Shown here one piece after another: positions 7,183-63,811 of a DNA stretch of 64,000 nt. The notes under the pieces were generated by a model. It was not told the origin of the DNA and did not search any database. It saw nothing but the letters and a program-made list of their open reading frames with translations. The position numbers were made by a program, and so were the translations under genes. How positions within the stretch are numbered: position 1 is the first letter of the stretch; each line of letters opens with the position of its first letter. The stretch comes from Treponema sp. (GTDB lineage Bacteria > Spirochaetota > Spirochaetia > Treponematales > Treponemataceae): the NCBI GenBank assembly GCA_017963165.1, contig JAGCTZ010000053.1, positions 19,122 to 83,121 on the forward strand. The letters run 5' to 3'.

Positions 7183-8220
7183 ATGAAAACAGTACTTATA
7201 AACAAACCTTTTGAAATCGGGGTGACAGAAACACAAAAACCTTCTGAACAGGAACTGGGTCAGGGGGAGGCACTTCTTAAGGTGCTTTACGGCGGCATTT
7301 GTGGAGCAGATATCGCAAGCTATACCGGGAACCAGCCTTTTACAACTTATCCGCGTATTCCGGGACACGAGTTCAGCGCACAGATTGTTTCTATAGGACA
7401 GAATGACAAGGGTCTTAAAGCAGGAGATATCATTACAGCAAATCCATACTTTAACTGCGGGCATTGCTATAGCTGTAAGCGTGGTTTTGTAAACTGTTGT
7501 ACTGATAATCAGACAATGGGTGTACAGCGCGATGGTGCCTTCCGTGAATATATTACAATGCCTGTTGAACGCATTTATCCGGGCAAAGGCCTTAGTGCTC
7601 AGGAGCTTGCGCTTGTTGAACCGTTTACAATCAGCTGGCATGCTCTGCATCGAACAAAAATAAATAAGGGCGATAAAGTACTTATCGTTGGCGCAGGGCC
7701 GATTGGACTTTTTGCTTTAATTGCAGCCAAGGCCCAGGACGCTGTTGTTTATGTGACAGATATTCTTGATGGTCGACTTGAAAAGGCAAAGCATTTTGGA
7801 GCGGATGGCGTAATCAATTCCAAAACAAATAATATTCTTGAGGAAGCAATGCGTATTACTGATGGAAACGGATTTGACACTTGTGTAGAAGCGTGCGGTC
7901 AGTCTGTTACATTTATGTCTTGTATTGATTGTGTTGCTTTTGCCGGAAACATAATTTTGATTGGAAACGGAAAAAAAGAAACTACGTTCCTGCATAGTAT
8001 TCTTCTTAAAAAAGAGCTTAATGTTTTTGGAAGCCGTAATTCTTTTGCCCGGGATTTTGAAGCAGTTATTGATTACATTGCAGGAGCAAAAGCTGGTAAC
8101 GGAGGCGTAAATGTACTTGATATGGTAAGCACTGTTTATCCTATTGAAAAAGCAGACGAAGCGTTCAAGGCATTGGCAAACAATGATGGAAGCCTGGCAA
8201 AGGTGCTTATACAAATTTAA
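7183..8220 (+). CDS. Zinc-dependent alcohol/polyol dehydrogenase (MDR)
   Basis: 345 residues, eight bases after the previous gene, with AGGAG before the ATG. It has the full zinc MDR pattern: catalytic GGICGADIASY and PGHEFSA, the structural zinc loop NCGHCYSCKRGFVNCC (about residues 88-103), and the NAD site VGAGPIGLFALIAAKA (about 169). This is the layout of sorbitol, threonine or galactitol dehydrogenases. With its neighbours it probably oxidises a sugar acid or polyol. The substrate is not readable from the sequence. Confidence 0.85.
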   Translation: MKTVLINKPFEIGVTETQKPSEQELGQGEALLKVLYGGICGADIASYTGNQPFTTYPRIPGHEFSAQIVSIGQNDKGLKAGDIITANPYFNCGHCYSCKRGFVNCCTDNQTMGVQRDGAFREYITMPVERIYPGKGLSAQELALVEPFTISWHALHRTKINKGDKVLIVGAGPIGLFALIAAKAQDAVVYVTDILDGRLEKAKHFGADGVINSKTNNILEEAMRITDGNGFDTCVEACGQSVTFMSCIDCVAFAGNIILIGNGKKETTFLHSILLKKELNVFGSRNSFARDFEAVIDYIAGAKAGNGGVNVLDMVSTVYPIEKADEAFKALANNDGSLAKVLIQI

Positions 8221-8232
8221 CTGGAGGGATAT

Positions 8233-9132
8233 TTGAATATTAAAATTGATGCACATGTCCACTTATGGAAGAACATTAATGGTCTGGTGAAAAGCGGCAA
8301 GGTTAGTTCTCTTGGCAACGGCAAGGTTGATTTTGCAGGCGAAGTCCGACAGATGATGCCTCCTTATATGGACGATGGGCAAAACACTGTAGAGCGTCTT
8401 ATTGCAAATATGGATTACGCCTGTGTAAATGCCGCTGTAATTACTCAGGAATATATAGACGGAAATCAGGATGAATACCTGTTAGAGGCTCGTAACAAAT
8501 ATCCGGAACGAATAAAGATTACAACGTTGTATGAAGACTACAATGTGTCGGACTCCACTGAAAAATTTATACAAAACCTCCAGCTTTTTGACGGTGTAAA
8601 AATCTGTGCAGGCAGACTTGCCGACCCTAACCTTAAAAAACTACTTCCACTTTTTAAGAAGATTCAGGAAGTCGGAAAATTTATATCAATCGATATGGCA
8701 GATGGTGCAGCACAAACAGGCGACCTTGCATTTATCATAAAGGAATGTCCTGAACTTAGAATTGCAATAGGTCATTTTGGAATGGTAACAACAGACGGCT
8801 GGCAAAAACAAATTGAACTTGCGAAGGCTCCAAATGTTTATATAGAAAGTGGTGGTCTTACCTGGCTTTTCCACAAAGAGTTTTATCCTTATCCTTCGGC
8901 AATTGATGCAATTTTAGAAGCACGCGACATTTGCGGGATGAACAAGCTTATGTGGGGAAGCGACTACCCGCGAACAATGACAGACATCACTTATATAATG
9001 GCAGTCCGATTTATAGAAGAAACGAATAAACTTACAGATGAAGAAAAGGCTGCATTCCTTGGTAAAAATGCAGAGAAGTTTTATGGGTTCAAAAATCTTG
9101 TGCCCTTAAAACCTATAAAAAACATGCTATAG
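8233..9132 (+). CDS. Amidohydrolase-2 family protein, lactonase-like
   Basis: 299 residues. The start is TTG at 8233, supported by GGAGGG just upstream and by the protein beginning directly with the metal motif DAHVHLW. Other family marks are AIGHFGM (about 178) and MWGSDYPRT (about 240), the last metal aspartate. The COG3618-like amidohydrolases include L-fucono- and rhamnono-lactonases, and the next gene is a FucU-type mutarotase, so sugar-lactone hydrolysis is a reasonable role (inference). Confidence 0.8.
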   Translation: MNIKIDAHVHLWKNINGLVKSGKVSSLGNGKVDFAGEVRQMMPPYMDDGQNTVERLIANMDYACVNAAVITQEYIDGNQDEYLLEARNKYPERIKITTLYEDYNVSDSTEKFIQNLQLFDGVKICAGRLADPNLKKLLPLFKKIQEVGKFISIDMADGAAQTGDLAFIIKECPELRIAIGHFGMVTTDGWQKQIELAKAPNVYIESGGLTWLFHKEFYPYPSAIDAILEARDICGMNKLMWGSDYPRTMTDITYIMAVRFIEETNKLTDEEKAAFLGKNAEKFYGFKNLVPLKPIKNML

Positions 9133-9142
9133 GAGAAACCTT

Positions 9143-9583
9143 ATGTTAAAAAATATTCCACAAATAATTCCGCCGCTGCTTCTTAAAACCTTATGCGAAA
9201 TGGGGCATGGCGATTCAATAGTCATTGCAGATGGAAACTTTCCGGCAGAAAGTGTTGGCAAAAATGCAATTGTCATAAGGATGGATGGCCACGGTGTTCC
9301 CGAAATTCTTGAAGCAATTTTAAAACTTATCCCGCTTGATCAATATGTTGAAAAACCTGTAGCACTTATGGAACGTTGCGAAGGAGACAATGCAGATGTT
9401 TCTATCTGGCAAAAATACGAAGCACTTCTGGAGCAATCAGGAGAAGGTAATAAGGATAGTATCCGCATGCTGGAACGCTTTGCATTTTATGAAGAAGCAA
9501 AAAAAGCATACGCTGTAATTGCAACAACAGAAACAAGTCAGTATGCAAATATAATTTTACAGAAGGGCTGTATAATAAAATAA
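9143..9583 (+). CDS. fucU: RbsD/FucU-family sugar mutarotase
   Basis: 146 residues, close to the 140 typical of FucU. It starts MLKNIPQIIPPLLLKTLCEMGHGDSIVIADGNFP, containing the catalytic-region GHGD and DGNFP of L-fucose mutarotase, and ends with the conserved Tyr/Asn region SQYANIILQKGCI. It interconverts anomers of a free sugar, feeding an enzyme that needs one anomer, here plausibly one of the two upstream dehydrogenases. AGGAG precedes the ATG and spacing to both neighbours is about 10 nt. The exact sugar (fucose, galactose or other) is unknown. Confidence 0.85.
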   Translation: MLKNIPQIIPPLLLKTLCEMGHGDSIVIADGNFPAESVGKNAIVIRMDGHGVPEILEAILKLIPLDQYVEKPVALMERCEGDNADVSIWQKYEALLEQSGEGNKDSIRMLERFAFYEEAKKAYAVIATTETSQYANIILQKGCIIK

Positions 9584-9593
9584 GGATAGCATT

Positions 9594-10961
9594 ATGAAAG
9601 AAACAATAATTCAGTTTGGTGAAGGCGGCTTTTTGCGAAGCTTTGCAGATGTATTTATTCACAAGATGAACGAACAGGATTTGTATGACGGCAAGGTTGT
9701 TGTTGTTCAGCCAATAAGCAAAGGTCTCATTCCTGTAATCAACGAACAGAAAGGTGTATACCATCAATTTTTGCGAGGAGTAGAAAACGGCCGTGTTATA
9801 AATGACTGTATTGAAGTTCATTCAATTTCGCGCGGAGTAGACCCTTACACCGATTACGACGAATTTCTTAGGCTTGCAGAAAATCCAGACATGCGTATCA
9901 TCATTTCAAATACAACAGAAGCGGGAATTGAATATCTTGGAACAGAAAAAATTGATGACCGTCCGCCAAAATCTTTTCCGGCAAAACTCACTGCCCTTCT
10001 TTATCACAGATTTAAAGCAGGTCTCAACGGCTTCATAATCCTTTCCTGTGAATTAATAGATAATAACGGCAAAGAACTTTTAGCCTGCGTTTTAAAATAT
10101 GCTGAACTCTGGAATCTGCCTGCAGAATTTATTGAATGGGTTAAGACACAAAATCATTTCTGTAACACACTTGTAGACAGAATCTGTACTGGTTATCCAA
10201 AAGATGAACAGGAAAAACAGGAACTTGATTCCCGGCTTAAAAAAGAGTTTGGTTTGACTAACAGCGACCGCCTTATGAACACTGCAGAAATATTTCATCT
10301 GTGGGTAATTGAAGGAAACTTTGAAAATGAATTCCCTCTGCAGAAAGCAGGGATAAATGTAATCTGGACAGAAGATGTAAGCCCGTACAAAAAGCGAAAG
10401 GTTCGTATCTTAAACGGGGCGCATACTTCTATGGTGCTTGGTGCAAGATTGTACGGCCTTTCTACAGTAAAAGAATGTCTGGATGACAAAACTGTAAATG
10501 CTTTTTTGAACAAGGTATTGTTTCAGGAAATTGTCCCAGTGCTTTCTGCTGGTCAGGATCAGACAACAGCTTTTGGATATGTTAAGTTTGCACAGGATGT
10601 TCTTGAACGGTTTGCGAATCCTTTTGTAAAACATCAGCTTTTGAGTATTGCTCTTAATTCTGTAAGCAAGTTTAAGGCTCGTGTTCTTCCGACAATTATT
10701 GAATACATGGATTATACAGGACGCTATCCGGAAGCCCTCACCTTTTCACTTGCCGCACTCCTTGCCTTTTATAAAACAGACGAGGCAAACGACGGCGAAG
10801 AAATCATGGCTTTTATGAAAAAGGCTTCGGTTCACGAAATTCTTTTACGCGAAGATTTCTGGGGACAGGATCTTTCGTTTATTCTTGAACCAGTAGAAAA
10901 ATATTTTACAATAATCCAGAATGAAGGAATGGAGCAGGCTTACAAAGAGGTTCTTTCATGA
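9594..10961 (+). CDS. uxaB: Tagaturonate reductase / mannitol dehydrogenase family (UxaB-like)
   Basis: 455 residues (E. coli UxaB is somewhat longer). It begins IIQFGEGGFLRSFADVFI, the nucleotide-binding start of UxaB, with SNTTEAGI (about 103) and the catalytic-helix region KKRKVRILNGAHTSM (about 267) typical of the long-chain mannitol dehydrogenase family. It reversibly reduces tagaturonate to altronate with NADH. It overlaps the next gene, an altronate dehydratase homologue, by four bases (ATGA), so the two are translationally coupled, which supports the UxaB/UxaA reading. Confidence 0.85.
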   Translation: MKETIIQFGEGGFLRSFADVFIHKMNEQDLYDGKVVVVQPISKGLIPVINEQKGVYHQFLRGVENGRVINDCIEVHSISRGVDPYTDYDEFLRLAENPDMRIIISNTTEAGIEYLGTEKIDDRPPKSFPAKLTALLYHRFKAGLNGFIILSCELIDNNGKELLACVLKYAELWNLPAEFIEWVKTQNHFCNTLVDRICTGYPKDEQEKQELDSRLKKEFGLTNSDRLMNTAEIFHLWVIEGNFENEFPLQKAGINVIWTEDVSPYKKRKVRILNGAHTSMVLGARLYGLSTVKECLDDKTVNAFLNKVLFQEIVPVLSAGQDQTTAFGYVKFAQDVLERFANPFVKHQLLSIALNSVSKFKARVLPTIIEYMDYTGRYPEALTFSLAALLAFYKTDEANDGEEIMAFMKKASVHEILLREDFWGQDLSFILEPVEKYFTIIQNEGMEQAYKEVLS

Positions 10962-12355
10962 GTCTTTTGCAGATTAATCCAAATGACACAGTTGCGGTAG
11001 ATACTCAAACAGGTCACAAGGTTGCACTCACAGATATTGCATACGGCCAGAATGTAATTAAATATGGCTTTGCAATCGGGCATGCAACAAAGGATATAAA
11101 AAAAGGTGAACGCGTTCACACAGAAAATCTTGCAACAAATTTAAAAGACAAGCTTGAGTATGAATATAAACCAAACTTCACTGCGGTCACAGCTCAGACA
11201 CAAAAAACCATCCTCGCCTACAAACGCCCAGACGGCAACATAGGAATCCGCAATGACATCTGGATAATCAACACTGTTGGCTGCGTAAACAAACTTGCAG
11301 AAAAACTGGCTGCAGCAACCGGGGCCTTCTGCTTTACTCATCCCTACGGTTGTTCTCAACTTGGAGGCGATCATCTTACAACTCAAAAGATTTTAAAGGG
11401 ACTTGTTTTTCATCCGAATGCAGGGGGCGTACTTGTCCTTGGACTTGGCTGCGAAAACAACAACCTTCAGGAATTCAAAAAAATCCTTACAGATAACGGA
11501 ACAAAAGAGTTTCCACAAAATCTTCGCTTTATGAATGCACAGGATTTCGACGATGATTTTGCACAAGGCATTAAGCTTATAAATGAACTTAAGGAATATG
11601 CTTCACAATTTAAACGCGAACCGGTTCCAATCTCTATGCTTAAGGTGGGACTCAAATGTGGCGGCTCTGATGGTTTTTCCGGTATAACAGCAAATCCTCT
11701 TATCGGACAGTTTTCGGACATGCTTATTGCTGCCGGCGGGACAACAGTTCTTACCGAAGTTCCAGAAATGTTTGGCGCCGAAACAATATTGATGAATCGC
11801 TGTATAAATCAAGAAGTCTTTGATAAAACCGTCAAACTCATAAATGATTTTAAAGATTATTTTATTCGTCATAATCAGGTTGTTTACGAAAATCCTTCTC
11901 CTGGAAACAAAGAAGGAGGAATTACAACGCTCGAAGAAAAATCGCTCGGCTGTGTTCAAAAGGGTGGAACAAGTCCTGTTGTAGATGTGCTTTCTTATGG
12001 CGACACACTCAGCAAAAACGGTTTGAACCTTTTAAATGGTCCTGGCAATGATATTGTTGCTGTAACAAATCTAACTGCTGCCGGCTGCCATTTGATTCTT
12101 TTTTCAACAGGAAGAGGAACTCCGCTTGGCGCACCAGTTCCAACAATAAAAGTTTCGACTAACACACTCCTTGCACAACATAAATCAAACTGGATAGATT
12201 TTAATGCTGGTAGTATAATTGAAAGTGGAAAAAGCGATGAACTTGCACAACAGTTTTTTGATTATGTCTGCAGCGTTGCCCAAGGCGTTCAGACAAAGAA
12301 CGAAATAAACGGCTATAGAGAAATCGCAATTTTCAAAGAAGGAGTTACGCTTTAA
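10958..12355 (+). CDS. uxaA: Altronate dehydratase family (UxaA-like)
   Basis: 465 residues. The N-terminal SAF-like domain (1-90) starts INPNDTVAVDTQTGHKV; the large domain has NTVGCVNKLAEKL, the Fe-S/metal cysteines in HPYGCSQLG and LGLGCENN, and GLKCGGSDGFSGITANPL, all hallmarks of UxaA/GarD dehydratases. The product of altronate would be 2-keto-3-deoxygluconate. Stop and next start overlap (TAATG). Because neighbours include a mutarotase and lactonase, a different six-carbon aldonate or uronate substrate is possible. Confidence 0.87.
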   Translation: MSLLQINPNDTVAVDTQTGHKVALTDIAYGQNVIKYGFAIGHATKDIKKGERVHTENLATNLKDKLEYEYKPNFTAVTAQTQKTILAYKRPDGNIGIRNDIWIINTVGCVNKLAEKLAAATGAFCFTHPYGCSQLGGDHLTTQKILKGLVFHPNAGGVLVLGLGCENNNLQEFKKILTDNGTKEFPQNLRFMNAQDFDDDFAQGIKLINELKEYASQFKREPVPISMLKVGLKCGGSDGFSGITANPLIGQFSDMLIAAGGTTVLTEVPEMFGAETILMNRCINQEVFDKTVKLINDFKDYFIRHNQVVYENPSPGNKEGGITTLEEKSLGCVQKGGTSPVVDVLSYGDTLSKNGLNLLNGPGNDIVAVTNLTAAGCHLILFSTGRGTPLGAPVPTIKVSTNTLLAQHKSNWIDFNAGSIIESGKSDELAQQFFDYVCSVAQGVQTKNEINGYREIAIFKEGVTL

Positions 12356-14482
12356 TGGCCCAGATCGAAAAAGAAATCTTAAGCAAATTTATTTTCAATG
12401 ATATGTGCGCAGTTTACCTTAAAGATAAAAAATCAAACTGCGTTGGCTTAACTCTTCTTCCTGCCGGCATGGAAAAAAATATCAACCTTGAAGGCTGGTG
12501 GAATATTGAACCTGCTGTTCAGCTTAAACTTCTGGCCGACCCTTATAGTGACGGATTTTCAAATGGCCATACAATGAAAAATAACGGCACTACTTCCACA
12601 ATGAAATTTATTGGTCAGCATTGCGAAACAAGTAGAGACAGCAAACAAATAACAAAAGTCGTCACAGAATATCAGATAAGAAGCATTAAAGTTCAACATG
12701 TTCTGCAATACACAGATGGCGACATTCATCTTATAAGTTATTCTATCCTAACAAACCTTGAACAAGAAAATGCCCAGACAGAAACAATAGAAATGCTTTC
12801 GTCCTTTAACTTATGTGCATTCCCGGCAATTGGGACCGGCCTACGCCAGAAGGATTTTATTCTTCACAGGATGCAGTCAAAATGGAGCATGGAAGGCAAA
12901 CTTGAATCGCGCAATTTTCTTGACATGAATCTTGAACCAGCCTGGCTAAGAATTGGTGCAGCAAGTGAACGATTTGGCGAAGTTGGTTCTATGCCTGTAC
13001 GCCGCTATTTTCCATGGATGATTGTGGAAGACACAAAATACCGCTACAGCATAGGCGCTCAACTTGCACATCCAGCTTCCTGGCAGTTAGAGGTGTATAA
13101 CAAAGATGAAAAAAAATTCTATATCAGGCGGACTTGCCGACAGGGAATTTGGTCATTGGACAAAACAGCTTAAACCTTCCGAAACCTTTGAAACACCTCT
13201 CGCAATTCTTACAGTTGCTAAAGAAGATGTTGACGGAATTTCACACAGACTTACTTCTGCACAACAGCAGAATCTTGATTCTCTTCCTGCAAGCGAAAAA
13301 GAGCTGCCTGTAATATTTAATGAATACTGCACAACCTGGGGAAATCCAACTCAGGAAAACATGTTTAAAATTGCAGAAAAACTCAAAGGTCATGGAATCA
13401 CATATTGTGTAATAGATGCAGGCTGGCACGTAAAAGATGGAAATGACTGGTCAGATATAGGAGACTGGATTACAAATTTGACAAGATTCCCGGATGGCTT
13501 GAAAGCAACTGCAGATAAAATAATAGAATGTGGAATGATTCCGGGTATCTGGTTTGAAATGGAAAATTGTGGCGCCGCCAGTCAGATTTTTAATGATACA
13601 AAAATGCTGCTTACAAGAGACGGAATCCCTATTCAATGCGGAAGCAGACGTTTTCTTGATATGCGAAAACCAGAAGTCATAGCTTATCTTACAGAACGTG
13701 TACTCAATACATTACGAAACAACGGCTTTAGTTACCTCAAGGTTGATTATAATGACAATATAGGAATTGGCTGTGACGGAGCAGAATCTCTTGGAGAAGG
13801 ACTTCGCCAGAACATGCTTGCCTCTCAGGGCTTCTTTAAAAAACTTCGTCGCGAACTTCCAAAGCTTGTAATAGAAAATTGTTCTTCGGGCGGCCACAGA
13901 CTTGAACCTTCTATGCAGGCTCTTACAAGCATGTCTTCTTTTTCTGATGCACATGAATGGCAGGCTATTCCTGTTATTGCCGCAAATGTTACTCGTGCAA
14001 TTCTTCCGGCTCAAAGTCAGATTTGGGCAGTACTTCGCAAAACTGATGACGACAAAAGACTTCATTATTCTCTTGCAAATACGTTCCTTGGAAGAATGTG
14101 TCTTTCGGGTGACATTTACGATTTATCAAAAGCTCAATGGAAAATTGTTGATAAGGCAATTTTACTTTATGTACGCTGCAATCATCTTATTTCTCTTGGA
14201 CGAAACTACAGATCAGGGCCTTTCCAGAATTCTTACAACGAACTAAAAGGCTGGCAGGCAGTAACAAGAGTTTCTCTTGGAAAAAGTCAGATGATGACAG
14301 TTGTAAATACTTTTGCAGGATTTAAAGGAACTCTTAAAATTCCATTACCAGAAAACGCAGCAGCATATTCTATAAGCGCAGTGTTTGCTCGTCCTAACAT
14401 AAAGGCTTCAATAAAACAGGATTCTTTAATAATAAAAAATGCTCAGGATTACGAAGGTATTGTTGTCCTGATGGAAAACTAA
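12355..14482 (+). pseudogene. GH36-type alpha-galactosidase split by a frameshift at an A8 tract
   Basis: Two frames together make one ~708-residue protein. Frame one (12355-13173) holds the N-terminal beta-sandwich. Frame two carries ISGGLADREFGHWTK and the TIM barrel, with the nucleophile region YLKVDYNDN, ENCSSGG and the acid/base region SSFSDAHEW, as in clan-D alpha-galactosidases. The break is at eight adenines (13109-13116): with seven, the frames join as DEKNSISGGLADREFGHW. It is either a real inactivating or slippage-prone indel, or a sequence error. An ATG at 13106 could start the second frame independently. Last gene of the sugar-acid operon; it ends 4 bp into the convergent hydrolase gene. 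Confidence 0.85.
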
Positions 14483-17188: not shown

Positions 17189-17248
17189 GGGGTTATTATA
17201 TCATAGGATTTATTCTTTGTAGTTATTTTTTGGATTTGGAAGCCATAT

Positions 17249-17573
17249 TTCCGACTTAACACCATTTTTATTCAGTTTAGTCGGGAAAAAGAATCTGTCT
17301 ATATTCAATAATCCCGACCAAAACAGCCTTTACGTTCGTTAAGTCGGGAATCCAAGAATAGTCTATTTCACTTTTTTCCGACCAATATGTTGTTTCCGCT
17401 CATTTAGTCGGGAAAAAATTGTATGAAACAGTTTGTTTTTCCTCAAAAATGAACAACAATTTTATAAAATTCCCGACTTAACCTTTTTCCTGTCCTGTTA
17501 AGTCGGGAATTCCCATACAGCGCTCTTATTTTTTCCCCGACCAGACGACCTTTTTCTTTGGTTTTGTCGGGAA
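17249..17573. repeat. Array of five phased TTCCCGACTTAA inverted repeats
   Basis: Five imperfect palindromes of 38-41 bp: 17249-17287, 17312-17349, 17376-17414, 17470-17509, 17533-17573. The best (17470-17509) is a perfect 12-bp inverted repeat TTCCCGACTTAA/TTAAGTCGGGAA around 16 bp. Spacer sequences are unrelated. Unit starts are 63, 64, 94 and 63 bp apart, near 6, 6, 9 and 6 helical turns. The units are not terminators (no consistent T run), not CRISPR (palindromic halves, no constant spacer) and not classical attC sites. They lie between the alkyltransferase gene and a BRO-N gene. Confidence 0.9.
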
Positions 17574-17867
17574 ATTTTGTTTATAGGTCTACCAATTATA
17601 TGATAATATTTTATTTTTCCAACTTGTCCGCTACTTGAGAAAGGAGTTCCTCCTACTCTGGCGGGAGTTTTTCACAATTGTCATTATCCGCAAAAAAGAA
17701 TATAGTTAACTTGTAAAGTCCACTACACATAAAGTAATCTCCAACGATTATCAGCGTTTTTTTATATGTGTGGTAATAGTTCAATTTTCATTTTTTTATT
17801 TTCTTTACCGTAATTCAGGTCTGGTGTTGGACTGGCGCTGAAAATCTAAAATCTTATGAGGAAAGGT
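17574..17867. other. Non-coding stretch before the BRO-N gene
   Basis: No convincing gene. It is AT-rich; an imperfect inverted pair (CCACTACACATA at 17731-17742 and TATGTGTGG at 17765-17773) may form a weak hairpin. GAGG at 17858 serves the ATG at 17868. No clear promoter was recognised. Confidence 0.5.
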
Positions 17868-54949: not shown

Positions 54950-55022
54950 CGCGGGGTAGAGCAGTTGGCAGCTCGTCGGGCTCATAACCCGGAGGCCGCA
55001 GGTTCGAGTCCTGCCCCCGCTA
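54950..55022 (+). tRNA. Initiator tRNA-fMet (CAU)
   Basis: Full cloverleaf. Anticodon CAT in loop CTCATAA; the anticodon stem has the three G-C pairs (GGG/CCC) diagnostic of initiator tRNAs; the acceptor starts CGCGGGG and ends CCCCGCT, leaving C1-U72 unpaired where C1-A72 is usual. Discriminator A at 55022; CCA is not encoded. The 3' part (from 54984) is duplicated at 63773-63811 by the integrative element. Confidence 0.95.
54984..55022 (+). other. attL core (tRNA 3' end)
   Basis: 39 bp beginning ATAACCCGGAGGCCGC, identical to attR. It starts inside the anticodon loop and runs to the discriminator base, so the tRNA stays intact after integration. Confidence 0.92.
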
Positions 55023-55157: not shown

Positions 55158-56153
55158 ATGCAAGACAAAAGATGTAAATACAAGATAAGAGAATGTAAGG
55201 ACTTTTACCTTTTCATCAAACACAAACAATCGCATATATATTATGCACGGTTTCCAGAATACAATAGAATTGTTTCTACGGGGCAGACCAACATTAAGCA
55301 AGCATATCAAGAGGCCTATAGAATTTATGGCTCGCTCGGAATTGCAACTACTCCATTTCATGAGCTGCTGCTTAATACTTATAAAGACAGTTTCTACAAA
55401 ACTTATAACATGGCTAAAAAGTTGTCGGCGTTCTTATCTGATATTAAAACTATTGAACAAGTAACACTCCCGCGACTCGTTAAACTTCAAGAACAATTAG
55501 CAGCTACGGGAATTACAGGTAAGTCCGTAAATAACTATATGTCTTTACTCAGAAAACTGTGGAAGAATAAAGAGTACAACCCTTTCCAGAATTTAAGTCC
55601 AATGGAACACACAAAAACTATTCGTCAGTGCTTCCCAGTTGAAAGCTTCAATGCATATGGTAACTATATTTCCCAACATAAATATTTACTTCTGCCCTAT
55701 ATTGCAATTACTACAGGCATGAGAGCAGGCGAATTCAAAACGGCGGAACCTATAACAATTCATAATAGACTATATCTACAAATAAATGGAACTAAAACAG
55801 AAAACGCTGTTCGCCGTGTTCCAATAACTCAAAAAGTTGCTGATGCGTTTCTTGAATACAAAAAGAATGGTTTCGCAAAAGCATCTTGGAAAGAGTCTGT
55901 ATATATGTCTGGAGCCCTTGTCGGTTATGACAAAGAATACATTGAGCAGCATAATATCGTTTTTCACTCTTTTCGCAAAATGTACAAAACAATTCTTGAA
56001 AGCAATAATATAAATAACCTCTGGATAGAATACTATATGGGTCACTCAATTTTACAAAGTACTGACGTGAACAAACTTTATTTTGACCCACTCAGTGCTG
56101 ACGATAGTCTTATATATGAGCAGGTTATAAGAGCATTAGAATTTTTATCATAA
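55158..56153 (+). CDS. Tyrosine-type phage integrase
   Basis: 331 residues. N-terminal DNA-binding part, core-binding SAM-like region (about 70-150, YNMAKKLSAFLSDI) and catalytic domain with Arg in TTGMRAGEF (about 189), Lys in INGTKTENAVRR, HSFR (about 275), GHS (about 296) and the nucleophile Tyr in NKLYFDP (about 308). All catalytic residues are present, so it is probably active. AGGAG lies eight bases before the ATG. It sits next to attL as usual. Confidence 0.95.
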   Translation: MQDKRCKYKIRECKDFYLFIKHKQSHIYYARFPEYNRIVSTGQTNIKQAYQEAYRIYGSLGIATTPFHELLLNTYKDSFYKTYNMAKKLSAFLSDIKTIEQVTLPRLVKLQEQLAATGITGKSVNNYMSLLRKLWKNKEYNPFQNLSPMEHTKTIRQCFPVESFNAYGNYISQHKYLLLPYIAITTGMRAGEFKTAEPITIHNRLYLQINGTKTENAVRRVPITQKVADAFLEYKKNGFAKASWKESVYMSGALVGYDKEYIEQHNIVFHSFRKMYKTILESNNINNLWIEYYMGHSILQSTDVNKLYFDPLSADDSLIYEQVIRALEFLS

Positions 56154-56204: not shown

Positions 56205-56504
56205 ATGGAGAATTATTATTACATTTTCGAGTTTATTTATAAATATTCGAAGTATTCTGAGTTAATACACAGTTTAGAAGAATTAGGTATAGACTGGATG
56301 AAAATAACTCCAGATAAAAACAATGAGATACTAACTATTATTTATTCTAAGGACAATAATAACTGTATAAGAACGAAATTTGCCATAGATGATAAAACAC
56401 TGGAACCCCTTGGACTTAGTTTTCACAATATGATATATCTTGCCTTAGAAAAAGCAGGAGCAAATATTAATCATTCCGTTTTAGAACAATTTCAGCATCA
56501 ATAA
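56205..56504 (+). CDS. Small protein of unknown function in the element
   Basis: 99 residues. GAGAGGA lies before the ATG. Acidic, mostly helical, rich in Tyr, Asn and Ile; no signal peptide or known motif. It follows the integrase by 51 bases and may be cotranscribed. An excisionase-like role cannot be excluded but nothing shows a helix-turn-helix. Confidence 0.65.
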   Translation: MENYYYIFEFIYKYSKYSELIHSLEELGIDWMKITPDKNNEILTIIYSKDNNNCIRTKFAIDDKTLEPLGLSFHNMIYLALEKAGANINHSVLEQFQHQ

Positions 56505-56579
56505 AAACATAAAAAAAAATCTTGCTAATATATACATAGATAAGAAAGTTGCATTTTTATTATTACAACTAATTATCAG

Positions 56580-57160
56580 AGTGGAAAACTAAATAGTTCA
56601 GAGCTCTCTAAACGCAAGTCTGTTGAGGATAATGTGGAAAATTATCATACCAAACAAAAGTACAGACATCTTAAGGGGCAAGGTTATGCCAAAAAATAGC
56701 CCGACCGACAGTGGCTCTCGGATAAGAACACTTTCGGGGATATGCTGTACTGGTCAAGTCCAAGGACCCAAGGCACAATAGTAAAAAGGTTCAGGTGAAA
56801 GTTTCAAACAAGAACATATACGACCTGAACACATTTATTTTCAGATAACAAATGAGACCCTGATAATAAACTATTTCCGACCTGTACCAACTGACACCGT
56901 TATTGTGAGGTGTTTCGCTTGCAACGAGCCTTGTATGGTGACATACATGGGGGCAGTCCGTTAGGAATAGGAATTTCTATATTTAAAATATATTTGATAT
57001 AAGGGGTTTTATTCCTGACGGAATAAAAACTTCCCTCAGTCCACCAGATAAGAACATTATTTATAAAAGCTTTTTGAATTCAAAAAAGGACACTGCTTAG
57101 AAAAGTTCGGAAGTGTGTTTTAATAATATTTGAAGAGACTGCTCTGAGTCCATGTCATAT
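56580..57160 (+). ncRNA. Large structured RNA candidate (~580 nt), ROOL/GOLLD-like by size and context
   Basis: Non-coding interval full of complementary segments. Long-range closure: TCAGAGC (56598-56604) with GCTCTGA (57141-57147). Others: GTCTGT/ACAGAC (56618-23, 56662-67), AGTACAG/CTGTACT (56659-65, 56745-51, exclusive with the former), GATAAT/ATTATC (56628-46), CCCGA..AGTG/CACT..TCGGG (56700-13, 56729-38), GTTCAGGT/ACCTGAAC (56789-96, 56823-30), ACACC/GGTGT (56894-98, 56909-13), GTATG-GTGA-CATAC (56933-46) and TTTTATTCC-TGAC-GGAATAAAA (57007-28). A TTGCAT (56549) and AATTAT (56571) may be its promoter. Strand is inferred. Size and the tRNA-element setting recall ROOL and GOLLD RNAs; membership in either is not proven. 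Confidence 0.65.
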
Positions 57161-57167
57161 ATTTGAA

Positions 57168-57503
57168 TTAATTTATTTTGTCTAAGGCTTTATTTAATAT
57201 CTTTCTAATATCATCTACAACTTCTTCTGTAATTTGGTTTCTTATCTTTTCATTCTCTGGAGTATCTTCAATTATTACTGGAGTCTTATCTTTTGGAATA
57301 AACAACTGATACACTTCTACTCCAAGAGCTTCAGCAATTTTTATTAGATTTTCTGTTCTGGGAAAACGACGTTTGCCTTCGATATTATTTATATTATGGG
57401 CAGAGACTCCAACTTTTTCAGCTAGCGTTTCTTGAGTGAATTTGCCTTTTCGATAAAACTTTATATTTTGAGATAAAGTTTCTAGAAGTTCTTTTTCTGT
57501 CAT
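57168..57503 (-). CDS. XRE-family helix-turn-helix regulator
   Basis: 111 residues. HTH (about 20-70): FTQETLAEKVGVSAHNINNIEGKRRFPR, with recognition helix SAHNINNIE and the LIKIAEALGV end. The C-terminal part is short and helical, probably for dimerisation. It is divergent from the gene at 57622 across two pairs of inverted 8-bp sites, so it likely represses both, in the manner of a small phage repressor. Confidence 0.85.
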   Translation of the reverse strand: MTEKELLETLSQNIKFYRKGKFTQETLAEKVGVSAHNINNIEGKRRFPRTENLIKIAEALGVEVYQLFIPKDKTPVIIEDTPENEKIRNQITEEVVDDIRKILNKALDKIN

Positions 57504-57513
57504 TTCTTACTCT

Positions 57514-57611
57514 CATTTTGGTAGTATTTTGGTTATATTTTAAACTTCCAAAATGGGCTTTTTCATGTTATGCTGCCATATTGGAAGTATTATAAAATGC
57601 CTACAATATGG
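57514..57611. promoter_or_regulatory. Candidate operators of the XRE regulator
   Basis: Two perfect 8-bp inverted pairs: CATTTTGG (57514-57521) with CCAAAATG (57548-57555), and CCATATTG (57576-57583) with CAATATGG (57604-57611). They share a C-C-A-(A/T)-A-T-(T/G)-type half. The first pair abuts the regulator's own start; the second ends just before the ribosome site of the 57622 gene. Confidence 0.6.
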
Positions 57612-57621
57612 GGGATTCACA

Positions 57622-57969
57622 ATGGAAAAGGAAACGCTAGGAATTGAAAATGTATTCAAGAAATATACAGAGTTAAAAAAACAAAATGCTTCATACGTTG
57701 TTATAAAAGCAGAAAAAAATCAGTTAGGAATTATTTTTTCAACAAATGCCTTTAACAGCGAGCAAGAAGCAAGAGAAAGTGCTTCTCAAATTGCTAGTAA
57801 TTATACTCGACCACTTAACAAAGAAGATTTTGTAGGATATGTAAAACATCCTTTTTTTCCAGTTCCACAATTACTACTAAAAGCAGAAAAGACAGTAATA
57901 GCTTATATGAAAATTACAGAATTTCCAGTCTATACATTAAGTTTAGATATCATAATGAATGACTGTTGA
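57622..57969 (+). CDS. Small protein of unknown function under XRE control
   Basis: 115 residues from the ATG at 57622 (GGGGGA upstream); an earlier in-frame ATG at 57553 would cover the operators. Mixed alpha/beta composition: KNVFKKYTELKKQ-like helix near the N-terminus, SYVVIKAEKNQLGIIFST strand region. No recognised motif. Placement opposite the regulator is typical of phage cro-side or accessory genes. Confidence 0.65.
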   Translation: MEKETLGIENVFKKYTELKKQNASYVVIKAEKNQLGIIFSTNAFNSEQEARESASQIASNYTRPLNKEDFVGYVKHPFFPVPQLLLKAEKTVIAYMKITEFPVYTLSLDIIMNDC

Positions 57970-59301: not shown

Positions 59302-59672
59302 AACAGAATGTTAGATACTGTGCAAACTTGGATGAAGAAGCTAGGAAGAAAGTTTGTGCCAACTGTCTAAACCATTTTTACAAGACAGAGCAATCTTAAT
59401 CTGAAAACGCCTCATATTGAATTAACACCCGTTTTCTAAATGCAAAAGCTGTTCGGGATTTTAGGTCTAATTTGTACTATATTTTATAAGAAAACCAAAA
59501 GAGTGCTATTATATTAATAGAGGAGAATAAGTTGTATGACATTAATGGTTACTGATTAACATTTACTTTAAATCTAAAAGCTGTTTGCAATAAAATAAAT
59601 ATATGATATAATAAAATGCTTATAACGGAACTAATTAAACTAGAACTTTATTTATTTGGAGGAGAAATTTGT
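59302..59672. other. Non-coding stretch with a degenerate copy of the upstream promoter region
   Basis: TTCGGGATTTTAGGT at 59453 onward repeats the sequence at 58657 onward, and both continue into a CTATATT segment and a GTGCTA(A/T)TATA box (59502-59512). It is therefore a second copy of the element promoter, probably for the Panacea gene at 59673. Nothing else recognised. Confidence 0.6.
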
Positions 59673-60095
59673 ATGAATGTATCAGATGTTGCAAAATACA
59701 TTATTAATTACCCAGACATTTATGTTGATAATTTAAAATTACAAAAACTTCTCTTTTATTCACAAGCTGTTTCTTTAGTAATAAATAAAAAGGAATTATT
59801 TGAAGAACCAATTGAAGCCTGGGACTATGGTCCAGTTGTACGAAGTATTTATAATTCATATAAGAATATTGACCAGCAAATACCAAAAACAAATGAAGTA
59901 ATTAACATTGATATAAAAGACGTTGAAATGATAGATATTGCCCTTGGTTATTACGGAGATATGACTGGCCCACAATTAATAACTCTTACACATTCTGAGA
60001 AACCTTGGAAAGATGCATATTCAAAGGGAAGAAATACAATTATAACGACAGCCGCTATAAAGAGCTTTTATTCAAAGATTTATCATTATGCCTAG
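59673..60095 (+). CDS. Panacea-domain (DUF4065/SocA-like) antitoxin
   Basis: 140 residues from the ATG at 59673, with GGAGGAG upstream; an ATG at 59616 is less likely. The Panacea core is clear: DNLKLQKLLFYSQAVSLV (about 19-36), then EEPIEAWDYGPVVRSIYNSYK (given in part: AWDYGPVV), and a C-terminal GDMTGPQLITLTHSEKPWKDA segment. Panacea proteins are antitoxins in PanAT modules paired with varied toxins. Here the next gene overlaps by eight bases, as expected for such a module. Confidence 0.88.
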   Translation: MNVSDVAKYIINYPDIYVDNLKLQKLLFYSQAVSLVINKKELFEEPIEAWDYGPVVRSIYNSYKNIDQQIPKTNEVINIDIKDVEMIDIALGYYGDMTGPQLITLTHSEKPWKDAYSKGRNTIITTAAIKSFYSKIYHYA

Positions 60096-61469: not shown

Positions 61470-62837
61470 TTATCCCCAATATAAGTTTCCATTATTATCA
61501 CATTTTAAAGTTTTGCCATAGTCGCCTGTTCCTGGTTTTGGAACTAATATACCTGTTACCCAAGAACCATTTCCTGCCAAGAAATTTGAGGTATTAGCTT
61601 TTGAAGAGCCTGGGCCAAATACAAGGTATTTTTCAGATGTTGAATAATTTTGGTATACTGCGTTATTTTTTAATGGGGCTCGACTTTTCCACTCTATACC
61701 ATTTCCATCACTGTTTACACGAAGAACACTGTCAGCATCTCCCGCTCCAAAAGTTGGAATACCCGCCTGTCCTTTAATAGTTATTACATTGTTAGCATCA
61801 CTCTCTACTGTAATATTATCACCGTCCGCAATTTGGAAAGAGTGTAGAGAACTATTTACAAGACTATCATTGTCTTTTTCAAATATTGCTACTATTGGAT
61901 TATCCTGGGCTCTTTTTGTTGTATCACCATTACCTACAGCAACGTCTGTTTTGTAATGGGTATCAGTGTTTTCTTGCCACGGAACATTTACAACAAGTTT
62001 ATTATCTTTATCTGCTGTTACTGGATAATACTTATTAATATTACCAGTACCTTGAAGTGTTAAAATATTCTTATCCTTTTTACTATCACCAAGGCAAACA
62101 CCACCTAGAGAGTCTGTTGTTGCAGCAGGCATAGTATTAAACATACTAAAAGTAAATTTAGTTGCACCCCATTGTATGCTATTAAGTTTAGCTTTATCAT
62201 ATGCAGACATAAGACCTGCCTTTCCTTGTGGTATTGAGTCAGGGTCTCCACTAGTATCATTGGCTCCTGTTGAAGTTGCTTCCTGTAATTTATTCAAAAG
62301 TATCCAGCGACCTGCATTACTATCATCTTTACTGTATACAAGAAGATACTTTACAGCTTGACCAGCCAAGTCTTTAACTTGAACAGAAATACCAGAAGTA
62401 TAATATACCAGACTTGAAACATTATTGCCGTCATGTATTCTAAGTTCTGTAGCATTAATTGACGAATAGGCAGGTAAACTTAAACAAACCATTGTTCCTA
62501 TTACAGGTTTTACTGTAATTTTTATACTAGGGTTAGTACCTGTTGCATTAAGTTTAATTGTATTATCTGTTAAAGAGTTATTACCGACAGAAGTAATACC
62601 TATAATTTCTGTATTACACTCTTTTACCTCTCCATCTTTATTAACATATACTGGTATATATTCACTGCCGATAGCTTTAGAAGTATCCCTGGTAACGGCA
62701 AGGTTTAATTTGGCTCTAAGTTTCACCCAGAAACTTATCAATGAATTTATTACATTTCCCTGGGTTGCTAGTGTTTCGGAAGTACTGTCTGTTATCCCCA
62801 AGTTTTGGTCATCTTTAATAATTGAGTTGTCTGCCAT
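61470..62837 (-). CDS. Phage tail-fibre-like / receptor-binding-like protein
   Basis: 455 residues; AGGAG about 12 bases before the ATG. Low-complexity beta-rich protein, Asn/Ser/Thr/Gly-rich. The phage fibre signature QGKAGLMSAYDKAKLNSI (about 208) resembles the G-L-M-S-x-x-D-K-x-K-L motif common in tail fibres and baseplate proteins. N-terminal MADNSIIKDDQNLGITDSTSE may be the attachment part. No other virion gene is near, and the C-terminus ends GNLYWG without a chaperone domain. Function in the element is unknown. Confidence 0.7.
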   Translation of the reverse strand: MADNSIIKDDQNLGITDSTSETLATQGNVINSLISFWVKLRAKLNLAVTRDTSKAIGSEYIPVYVNKDGEVKECNTEIIGITSVGNNSLTDNTIKLNATGTNPSIKITVKPVIGTMVCLSLPAYSSINATELRIHDGNNVSSLVYYTSGISVQVKDLAGQAVKYLLVYSKDDSNAGRWILLNKLQEATSTGANDTSGDPDSIPQGKAGLMSAYDKAKLNSIQWGATKFTFSMFNTMPAATTDSLGGVCLGDSKKDKNILTLQGTGNINKYYPVTADKDNKLVVNVPWQENTDTHYKTDVAVGNGDTTKRAQDNPIVAIFEKDNDSLVNSSLHSFQIADGDNITVESDANNVITIKGQAGIPTFGAGDADSVLRVNSDGNGIEWKSRAPLKNNAVYQNYSTSEKYLVFGPGSSKANTSNFLAGNGSWVTGILVPKPGTGDYGKTLKCDNNGNLYWG

Positions 62838-62915
62838 TTATTTATATTCTCCTGTGGCTTAATAAGTTATATTAAATTAGTTAAGACCCTCAGGTTCTTA
62901 ATTTTATCATCCGGG

Positions 62916-63045: not shown

Positions 63046-63348
63046 TTACTTATTTTTTTTGCTTTTCTTTATATCAAATATTTTGGTATGAGAACTTATG
63101 CGATAAAGGGTTAGAATATAAAGTTTTCCATCGTTGCTTTTTTTATATACAAGAAATAAATCTGGGCGAATATGACATTCTCGAAAACCAATATAATTTC
63201 CAAGTAAGTCATGGTCACGATATTTTGTATCAAGAGGTTCATCTTTTAAGAGTTTTTTAACAACTGTATCGGTTTCTACAATTTCATCATTGTTGAGTTT
63301 CTTGTAGTCTTTACGAAAAGATTTTGTAGTACGGAGCTGTCTTGTCAT
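63046..63348 (-). CDS. yafQ: YafQ/RelE-family mRNA interferase toxin
   Basis: 100 residues. The family motifs are clear: RTTKSFRKDYKKL at the start, KYRDHDLLGNYIGFRECHIRPDLFLVYK in the middle (catalytic His in RECHIRPD) and LTLYRISSHTKIF with a C-terminal His as in YafQ (H..xxF). It cleaves mRNA in the ribosome A site. It overlaps the antitoxin by four bases (ATGA). Confidence 0.9.
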   Translation of the reverse strand: MTRQLRTTKSFRKDYKKLNNDEIVETDTVVKKLLKDEPLDTKYRDHDLLGNYIGFRECHIRPDLFLVYKKSNDGKLYILTLYRISSHTKIFDIKKSKKNK

Positions 63349-63590
63349 CTAGCCATTGCCACCTTAAAGTCATCGAAAGAATTGAAAACTTCAATGTCTC
63401 CACGTTCTACTTCTGCAATAGCTTCGTCTAAACCATTCTTGGCTTGTGCATCTGTATTAAATATATTATCAGAGAATTCAGACTGTCTTTTTTTCATCAG
63501 TTTCAAAAGATATTCCATAATGGTTATCTGTTCTGCAAATGTGAGTAAACTTAACTGATTTTCAAAATTTTTTAATTCCTTTGCCGACAT
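63345..63590 (-). CDS. Antitoxin of the YafQ pair (RelB/DinJ-like)
   Basis: 81 residues; GGAGG before the ATG. N-terminal helices (KELKNFENQLSLLTFAEQIT) would form the dimer/DNA-binding part, and the C-terminal DEAIAEVERGDIEVFNSFDDF is the acid-rich toxin-binding tail seen in many relBE-type antitoxins. Overlap with the toxin gene supports the pairing; the ribbon-helix-helix is not distinctive enough to name. Confidence 0.82.
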   Translation of the reverse strand: MSAKELKNFENQLSLLTFAEQITIMEYLLKLMKKRQSEFSDNIFNTDAQAKNGLDEAIAEVERGDIEVFNSFDDFKVAMAR

Positions 63591-63772: not shown

Positions 63773-63811
63773 ATAACCCGGAGGCCGCAGGTTCGAGTCC
63801 TGCCCCCGCTA
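63773..63811 (+). other. attR core, displaced tRNA 3' fragment
   Basis: 39 bp identical to 54984-55022. It lacks a tRNA 5' half and is followed by a hairpin terminator (63818-63846), probably the original tRNA terminator. Confidence 0.92.

Follow-up and report, generated by a model that had tools for sequence, protein, structure and literature searches.

We describe here an interval, positions 56583 to about 57155 on the plus strand of a 64,000-nt stretch of Treponema sp. DNA (the window), that in our judgment has an even chance of being the gene of a structured noncoding RNA of about 570 nt, carried by an 8.8-kb phage-satellite-like element and fired by a phage program. That the interval encodes a functional noncoding RNA at all we consider slightly more probable, while a trans-acting role for this RNA, as a scaffold or other structural component, is a tentative and somewhat doubtful proposal. 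The interpretation draws on a sequence block shared with a phage contig, the absence of a coding signal, a strand-biased fold, relatives of the element's integrase in phage contigs, and a protein with head-fiber-type relatives. A large noncoding RNA in a tRNA-borne element was the core of the original prediction; such an RNA in a phage-related element of a Treponema-type host is still the best reading, now supported by a phage-type block directly upstream, but membership in an Rfam family is not supported.

A phage-related element in a tRNA-Met gene

The element of about 8.8 kb is inserted in a tRNA-Met(CAT) gene (54950 to 55022, plus strand; identified by ARAGORN and by Rfam RF00005 with 62.6 bits), and both of its ends are a 39-bp exact repeat of the 3′ part of this tRNA gene, at 54984 to 55022 on the left and at 63773 to 63811 on the right, which bears out the predicted tRNA-borne element. 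The integration-site tRNA is the only tRNA gene in the window, and there is no tRNA island. Next to it lies a gene for a 331-aa tyrosine integrase (55158 to 56153, plus strand), which matches the PHROG 1 integrase family (E value of 8e-19) and, below the cutoff of 27.1 bits, the Pfam Phage_integrase family (25 bits; E value of 1.9e-5). Relatives of this integrase are present in viral and phage contigs. We also searched 274 genomes from the family of a related Treponema (G001), and 3 of these had a match at an E value of 1e-20 or lower. The following gene (56205 to 56504, plus strand) encodes a 99-aa protein that scores 21.2 bits against Pfam Lipocalin, below the cutoff of 23; a protein search found four relatives, and the sole match of its profile among the 274 genomes was G001.

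Beyond the interval, and convergent with it, a gene for a Cro/CI-type repressor of 111 aa is located at 57168 to 57503 on the minus strand (HTH_19, 44.6 bits, with a cutoff of 30.2). A search with this repressor matched two distant viral contigs, neither of which gave a match to the interval with nhmmer or covariance models. A 138-aa gene is divergent from the repressor gene, and the region between the two (57500 to 57640) holds inverted repeats, such as ACTTCCAAAATGG/CCATATTGGAAGT, which are possibly repressor operators and do not resemble the GTTG/CAAC site that precedes the proposed RNA. The remaining content consists of small proteins, a SocA/Panacea-domain gene recognized by Pfam (59616 to 60095), a 455-aa protein (61470 to 62837, minus strand), and, near the right end, a YafQ-type toxin gene with a small neighbor (63046 to 63590, minus strand), which probably encodes the partner of the toxin. 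The 455-aa protein itself has no Pfam or PHROG match, and its profile matched none of the 274 genomes. Among its 92 database relatives, a precomputed match to PF11133 (Head fiber protein) is present in 71 and absent from the 6 closest; in our own scan, one of four relatives (P0078, 34% identical) matched PF11133 with an E value of 1.1e-7, so that the window protein is distantly related to proteins with a phage head-fiber domain. No viral contigs carrying the 99-aa or the 455-aa protein were found.

With an integrase and a repressor in a tRNA gene and no full set of virion genes, the element has the makeup of a phage satellite, a description that fits a decayed prophage as well. A replication gene was not recognized among 11 of its 12 open reading frames (ORFs), 10 of which were scanned by Pfam and PHROGs and the eleventh by Pfam alone. 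The element looks satellite-like, or like a remnant derived from a phage, with the promoter language of a phage.

A related element occupies the same integration site in L002, a contig of the G001 genome, which is a Treponema metagenome-assembled genome from a water deer omasum and the basis of our assignment of the element to a probable gut Treponema host. The integrase and repressor of this element are 90% and 89% identical to those described above, and the attachment core bounds it too, at L002 positions 7827 to 7865 (97% identity) and 13934 to 13974 (100% identity). The proposed RNA is absent from it, and other genes occupy the slot between integrase and repressor (9001 to 12103): a replicase-like gene (its match to PF03090 has 23.7 bits, short of the cutoff of 26), a relative of the 99-aa protein (51% identity), and a second tyrosine recombinase. 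This slot may be exchanged among elements.

The interval shows no coding signal

The gap between the 99-aa gene and the repressor gene (56505 to 57167) is 663 nt long and the second longest of the window by a simple ORF-based gene call. Its longest stop-free stretch in any of the six frames is 62 codons. It contains 11 stop-free stretches of at least 35 codons, and the 9 that were scanned gave no Pfam match at an E value of up to 10; likewise, tblastn with the read-through frames of the interval gave no match at an E value of up to 1 in 53 fetched loci. The original description of a gap without coding signal is therefore confirmed. Within it, we place the proposed RNA at 56583 to 57155 on the plus strand, with both ends deduced from two features described below, the block that precedes it and the helix that closes it. 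As an aside, the longest gap of the window (17189 to 17855, 667 nt) has no Rfam match, and a 571-nt segment overlapping its start has a fold z score of −3.6 on the minus strand, about equal to that of the interval studied here.

A promoter-like block is shared with a phage contig

Immediately upstream of the interval, at 56522 to 56576 on the plus strand, lies a block resembling a phage-type promoter (TTGCTAATATATA ... GTTGCA-N12-CAACTAATTAT), which was recognized by its similarity to L040 (IMGVR_UViG_3300028591_004907), a 32.9-kb IMG/VR viral contig of which 16.9 kb was examined. This contig was retrieved in a viral search for related integrases; its integrase is 44% identical to that of the element, and a major head protein is weakly matched by PHROG (E value of 1.6e-4). 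The block aligns to positions 11065 to 11014 of L040 with 83.6% identity over 55 bp (E value of 5.5e-8), and its alignment score is 62, while 500 mononucleotide shuffles scored no higher than 31; with nhmmer, which corrects for biased composition, the match reaches an E value of just 0.21. The L040 copy of the block has a site at its end, and a 399-aa ORF begins 58 nt farther on.

The core of the site, ACTAATTA, is found 14 times in the 16.9 kb of L040, compared with 2.3 occurrences expected from base composition; 200 Markov simulations yielded 1.9 on average and never more than 10. For ten of the 14 sites, an ORF of 40 codons or more on the same strand starts within 100 nt (25% for random positions), and for 13, one starts within 250 nt (56% for random positions). 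Only 4 of the 14 fall within ORFs of 100 aa or more, although such ORFs make up 75% of the sequence, and 7 are followed within 90 nt by a word resembling a ribosome binding site (RBS) and a start codon. This recurrent AAAATAACTAATTATATGTAAG-like signal looks like a phage-specific promoter class. In L039, a contig whose integrase is 49% identical, there are 4 ACTAATTA sites where 2.0 would be expected, and two of these immediately precede an RBS-like word and a start codon. L038, with a closer integrase (67%), has none versus 1.5 expected, and hence the signal is not common to all contigs with related integrases.

The longer pattern GTTG-N14-CAACTAATTA occurs once in the window, at the 5′ edge of the proposed RNA, three times in L040, and in none of the 274 genomes of the G001 family. 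A variant, GTTGCA-N12-CAACTAATTA, matches 12 viral stretches, and the L040 contig alone has more than one copy; judged from their sequence context, the 11 single-copy stretches were taken to be chance matches. When a matrix trained on L040 alone was run over the window, the site ahead of the RNA ranked first with a score of 20.8, followed by one of 17.5, and maxima in five shuffles ranged from 7.3 to 12.7. The top eight also include a site preceding the 99-aa gene, in third place with 14.2, and one preceding the 455-aa gene, in eighth place at 62867; the latter is weak, its score of 8.4 lying inside the shuffle range. Since a score of 17.6 occurs within a gene of L002, single scores of about this size are not proof.

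On the plus strand at the block, no sigma-70 consensus promoter was found, and our proposal that the block is a promoter is based on its resemblance to L040 and on the position of the L040 sites. An intrinsic terminator was likewise not found in positions 56400 to 57700, a result that carries little weight because shuffled sequences average only 0.7 terminators. As the RNA-like interval is the first thing downstream of the best phage-type site of the element, a plus-strand transcript is likely, independently of any folding energies.

Folding of the interval

As RNA, the plus strand of 56590 to 57160 folds with a z score of −3.64, and none of 100 shuffles was as stable; the minus strand has a z score of −1.69, with 6 of 100 shuffles as stable, and with DNA energies 56583 to 57160 reaches −1.50. 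When the window was scored alike, the interval ranked 5th of 224 segment-strands (4 of the other 223 being better), a rough rank as most segments were compared with 8 shuffles. Helices of at least 8 bp number 60, compared with 45.7 ± 9.7 in 60 shuffles. We regard the stability as moderate and folding alone as weak evidence.

The stems named in the original prediction are borne out by the sequence. The 8-bp stem GTTCAGGT/ACCTGAAC (arms at 56789 to 56796 and 56823 to 56830) does exist as proposed, with a pair probability of 0.99. The closure of the 5′ and 3′ ends by TCAGAGC (56598 to 56604) and GCTCTGA (57141 to 57147) is also present, as part of a closing helix in which 56597 to 56604 pair with 57141 to 57148 (pair probability of 0.95) and then 56605 to 56609 with 57134 to 57138 (0.80), but it is not rare: an end-to-end duplex as good as this was obtained in 110 of 2,000 shuffles (5.5%). 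The two alternative stems at 56618 to 56751 can be traced in the sequence, GTCTGT/ACAGAC having a pair probability of 0.40. The hairpin capped by GTGA is likewise in the sequence; it appears if its domain is folded in isolation, but in the ensemble of the full-length interval it gives way to other pairings. The longest helix, absent from the original prediction, is a 16-bp stem with G-U pairs between 56957 to 56972 and 57007 to 57022 (pair probability of 0.89), a length reached in 1 of 60 shuffles; its 3′ arm can alternatively form a 9-bp hairpin (57007 to 57028). A further helix spans 56948 to 57038 with a pair probability of 0.99.

Searches for known RNA families and homologues

The original prediction had raised the possibility of a spirochete ROOL or GOLLD RNA and suggested a comparison with Rfam covariance models. 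With all 4,227 Rfam families, cmscan at the gathering score detected nothing in the window besides the tRNA, and neither ROOL nor GOLLD was matched in 56400 to 57300 with permissive filters and E values of up to 10, which speaks against either assignment. Four weak matches in 56400 to 57300 (E values of 0.49 to 9.9; two microRNA families, a streptococcal small RNA, and a pestivirus element) are far below their gathering scores and were dismissed as chance. In L002, L038, L039, and L040, Rfam found nothing apart from tRNAs. The ROOL model also had no match in the 274 genomes, a null result that shows little since 14 control genomes equally gave none.

A homologue of the interval was not found by blastn in the 274 genomes, two candidates per genome being scored: 247 genomes had a match with an E value of up to 1 and 2 had one of up to 1e-3, and both of the latter correspond to an AT-rich hairpin near query positions 495 to 528. 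In phage and plasmid collections, blastn matched 73 records of phages and 1 of a plasmid, but in no case did the match extend over 80% of the query; the matches listed span 36 to 42 nt, and the best 20 of the 73 phage matches share one AT-rich piece of 41 nt. Matches of 49 and 35 nt in two loci, L005 and L020, are located in apparently protein-coding sequence, presumably of an Rpn-type transposase, and were judged to be chance. We also built two covariance models, R1 (the 5′ domain) and R2, each from one sequence given twice and thus carrying no covariation. R1 matched none of the 274 genomes, with at most 11 candidates scored per genome among the matches listed. When both models were run on 22 sources, made up of 21 of the 53 loci and the window, they matched the window alone, with an additional match of R2 to its own hairpin on the other strand. 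As these searches produced no second copy, neither covariation nor a new RNA class can be demonstrated. In the open-license literature, the titles and opening lines of abstracts of the matches listed revealed no RNA of this kind in Treponema.

Discussion

The interval resembles ROOL and GOLLD RNAs in size, setting, and absence of coding, and by the covariance model test it is neither one. The ROOL model (RF03087) has 574 positions, and PMC12286853 describes a 659-nt member (env-120), a phage or prophage setting, a member from cow rumen, and no known protein product. The setting near a tRNA is found here as well (tRNA-Met, integrase, fiber-type relative, and block) and is common to many elements. 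In contrast to ROOL, the interval gave no cmscan match at an E value of up to 10, is not in a tRNA island, and lies behind a block that also occurs in a phage contig. GOLLD is likewise a large RNA borne by phages and prophages, and env-38 was found downstream of a Met-tRNA (PMC12286853); the interval differs from it by the lack of an Rfam match and by being shorter, many GOLLD members exceeding 800 nt. In the same paper, GOLLD expression is described to rise during lysis, and the functions of both RNAs are given as still unknown. A likeness by description, in another host and element, exists to the PLE satellites and phage ICP1, whose most abundant transcripts are predicted to be noncoding, according to PMC7567579; the PLE transcript between inverted repeats and the ICP1 noncoding RNA of about 800 nt are abundant, have no predicted coding, and were seen in phage infection. 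The same paper places the PLE RNA between inverted repeats and attributes to it antisense homology to the leaders of PLE ORFs, such homology not being convincingly seen for our interval. By analogy, the interval RNA may work like ROOL and GOLLD or like the PLE satellite RNAs.

Our first choice is an RNA that acts in trans as a structural component during the lytic phase; the second choice and main rival, as no terminator was found between the RNA and the repressor, is regulatory read-through. Here, transcription from the phage-type promoter would continue past the interval and enter the convergent repressor gene at its 3′ end. The block points toward this gene, whose stop codon follows the closing helix after about 20 nt. 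Transcriptional interference or antisense pairing would lower repressor levels, and the structured part would be a long stabilizing leader or spacer. The missing terminator in 56400 to 57700 agrees with this, as weakly as the shuffle average allows, and RNAs complementary to gene leaders have been reported in phages P1, P7, and N15 and in satellites P4 and PhiR73 (PMC7567579). Yet a pairing-rich spacer of 570 nt exceeds what interference needs, and no clear antisense pattern was seen for 12 gene leaders of the element and 20 of L040: for 3 of these 32, none of 40 shuffles was as good, with about 0.8 expected, the best being the L040 integrase leader (z score of −3.97). We consider read-through unlikely, if less so than the other alternatives.

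These concern a DNA site and decayed or chance sequence, both of which we regard as quite improbable. Mobile elements need replication origins or packaging sites, and one of these could be located in the interval, its inverted repeats acting as DNA, all the more so as no replication gene was recognized in the 11 ORFs scanned. Against such a site are the fold signal, which is stronger for the plus strand as RNA than for the other strand or with DNA energies, and a promoter-like block that reads into the interval; moreover, the direct repeats found are two-copy only, and there is no iteron-like array. If the interval were instead what remains of a gene now lost, with its promoter still recognizable, its stems would be due to chance, in line with the fold rank, the frequency of the closure among shuffles, and the short matches to apparently coding stretches in L020 and L005, themselves judged to be chance. 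This is countered by the 9 of 11 stop-free stretches that were scanned and did not match Pfam, by the read-through frames, which did not match the 53 fetched loci, by an upstream block that is well kept, and by the longest helix, which shuffling rarely reproduced.

A structured RNA fired by a phage program thus remains our preferred reading. Against it stand the single sequence, the rank of its fold, the share of shuffles that reach the closure, and the L002 element without the interval, as well as the missing terminator and sigma-70 promoter, the nhmmer E value, and the few or no ACTAATTA sites in L039 and L038. We propose that, during growth of a related phage or once repression of the element is relieved, the transcription program of the phage would fire the block as a promoter, that the transcript would fold with its two ends paired, and that the RNA would then act in trans as an abundant structural RNA in the lytic phase, as has been proposed for phage RNAs of the ROOL and GOLLD type. 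A far bolder version, to which we assign only a slim chance, is that the interval represents a hitherto undescribed class of large, ornate RNAs, limited to a rare family of phage satellites in Treponema, fired by the promoter type of the helper and forming a multimeric particle or scaffold that serves the satellite during helper growth.

In summary, if the preferred reading is correct, a large RNA behind a phage-shared block would tie such RNAs to the conflict between phages and their satellites, in an element short enough to be dissected, and the RNA would be predicted to appear only while the phage program runs. If the interval instead controls the repressor by read-through, it would still constitute a simple helper-sensing switch.
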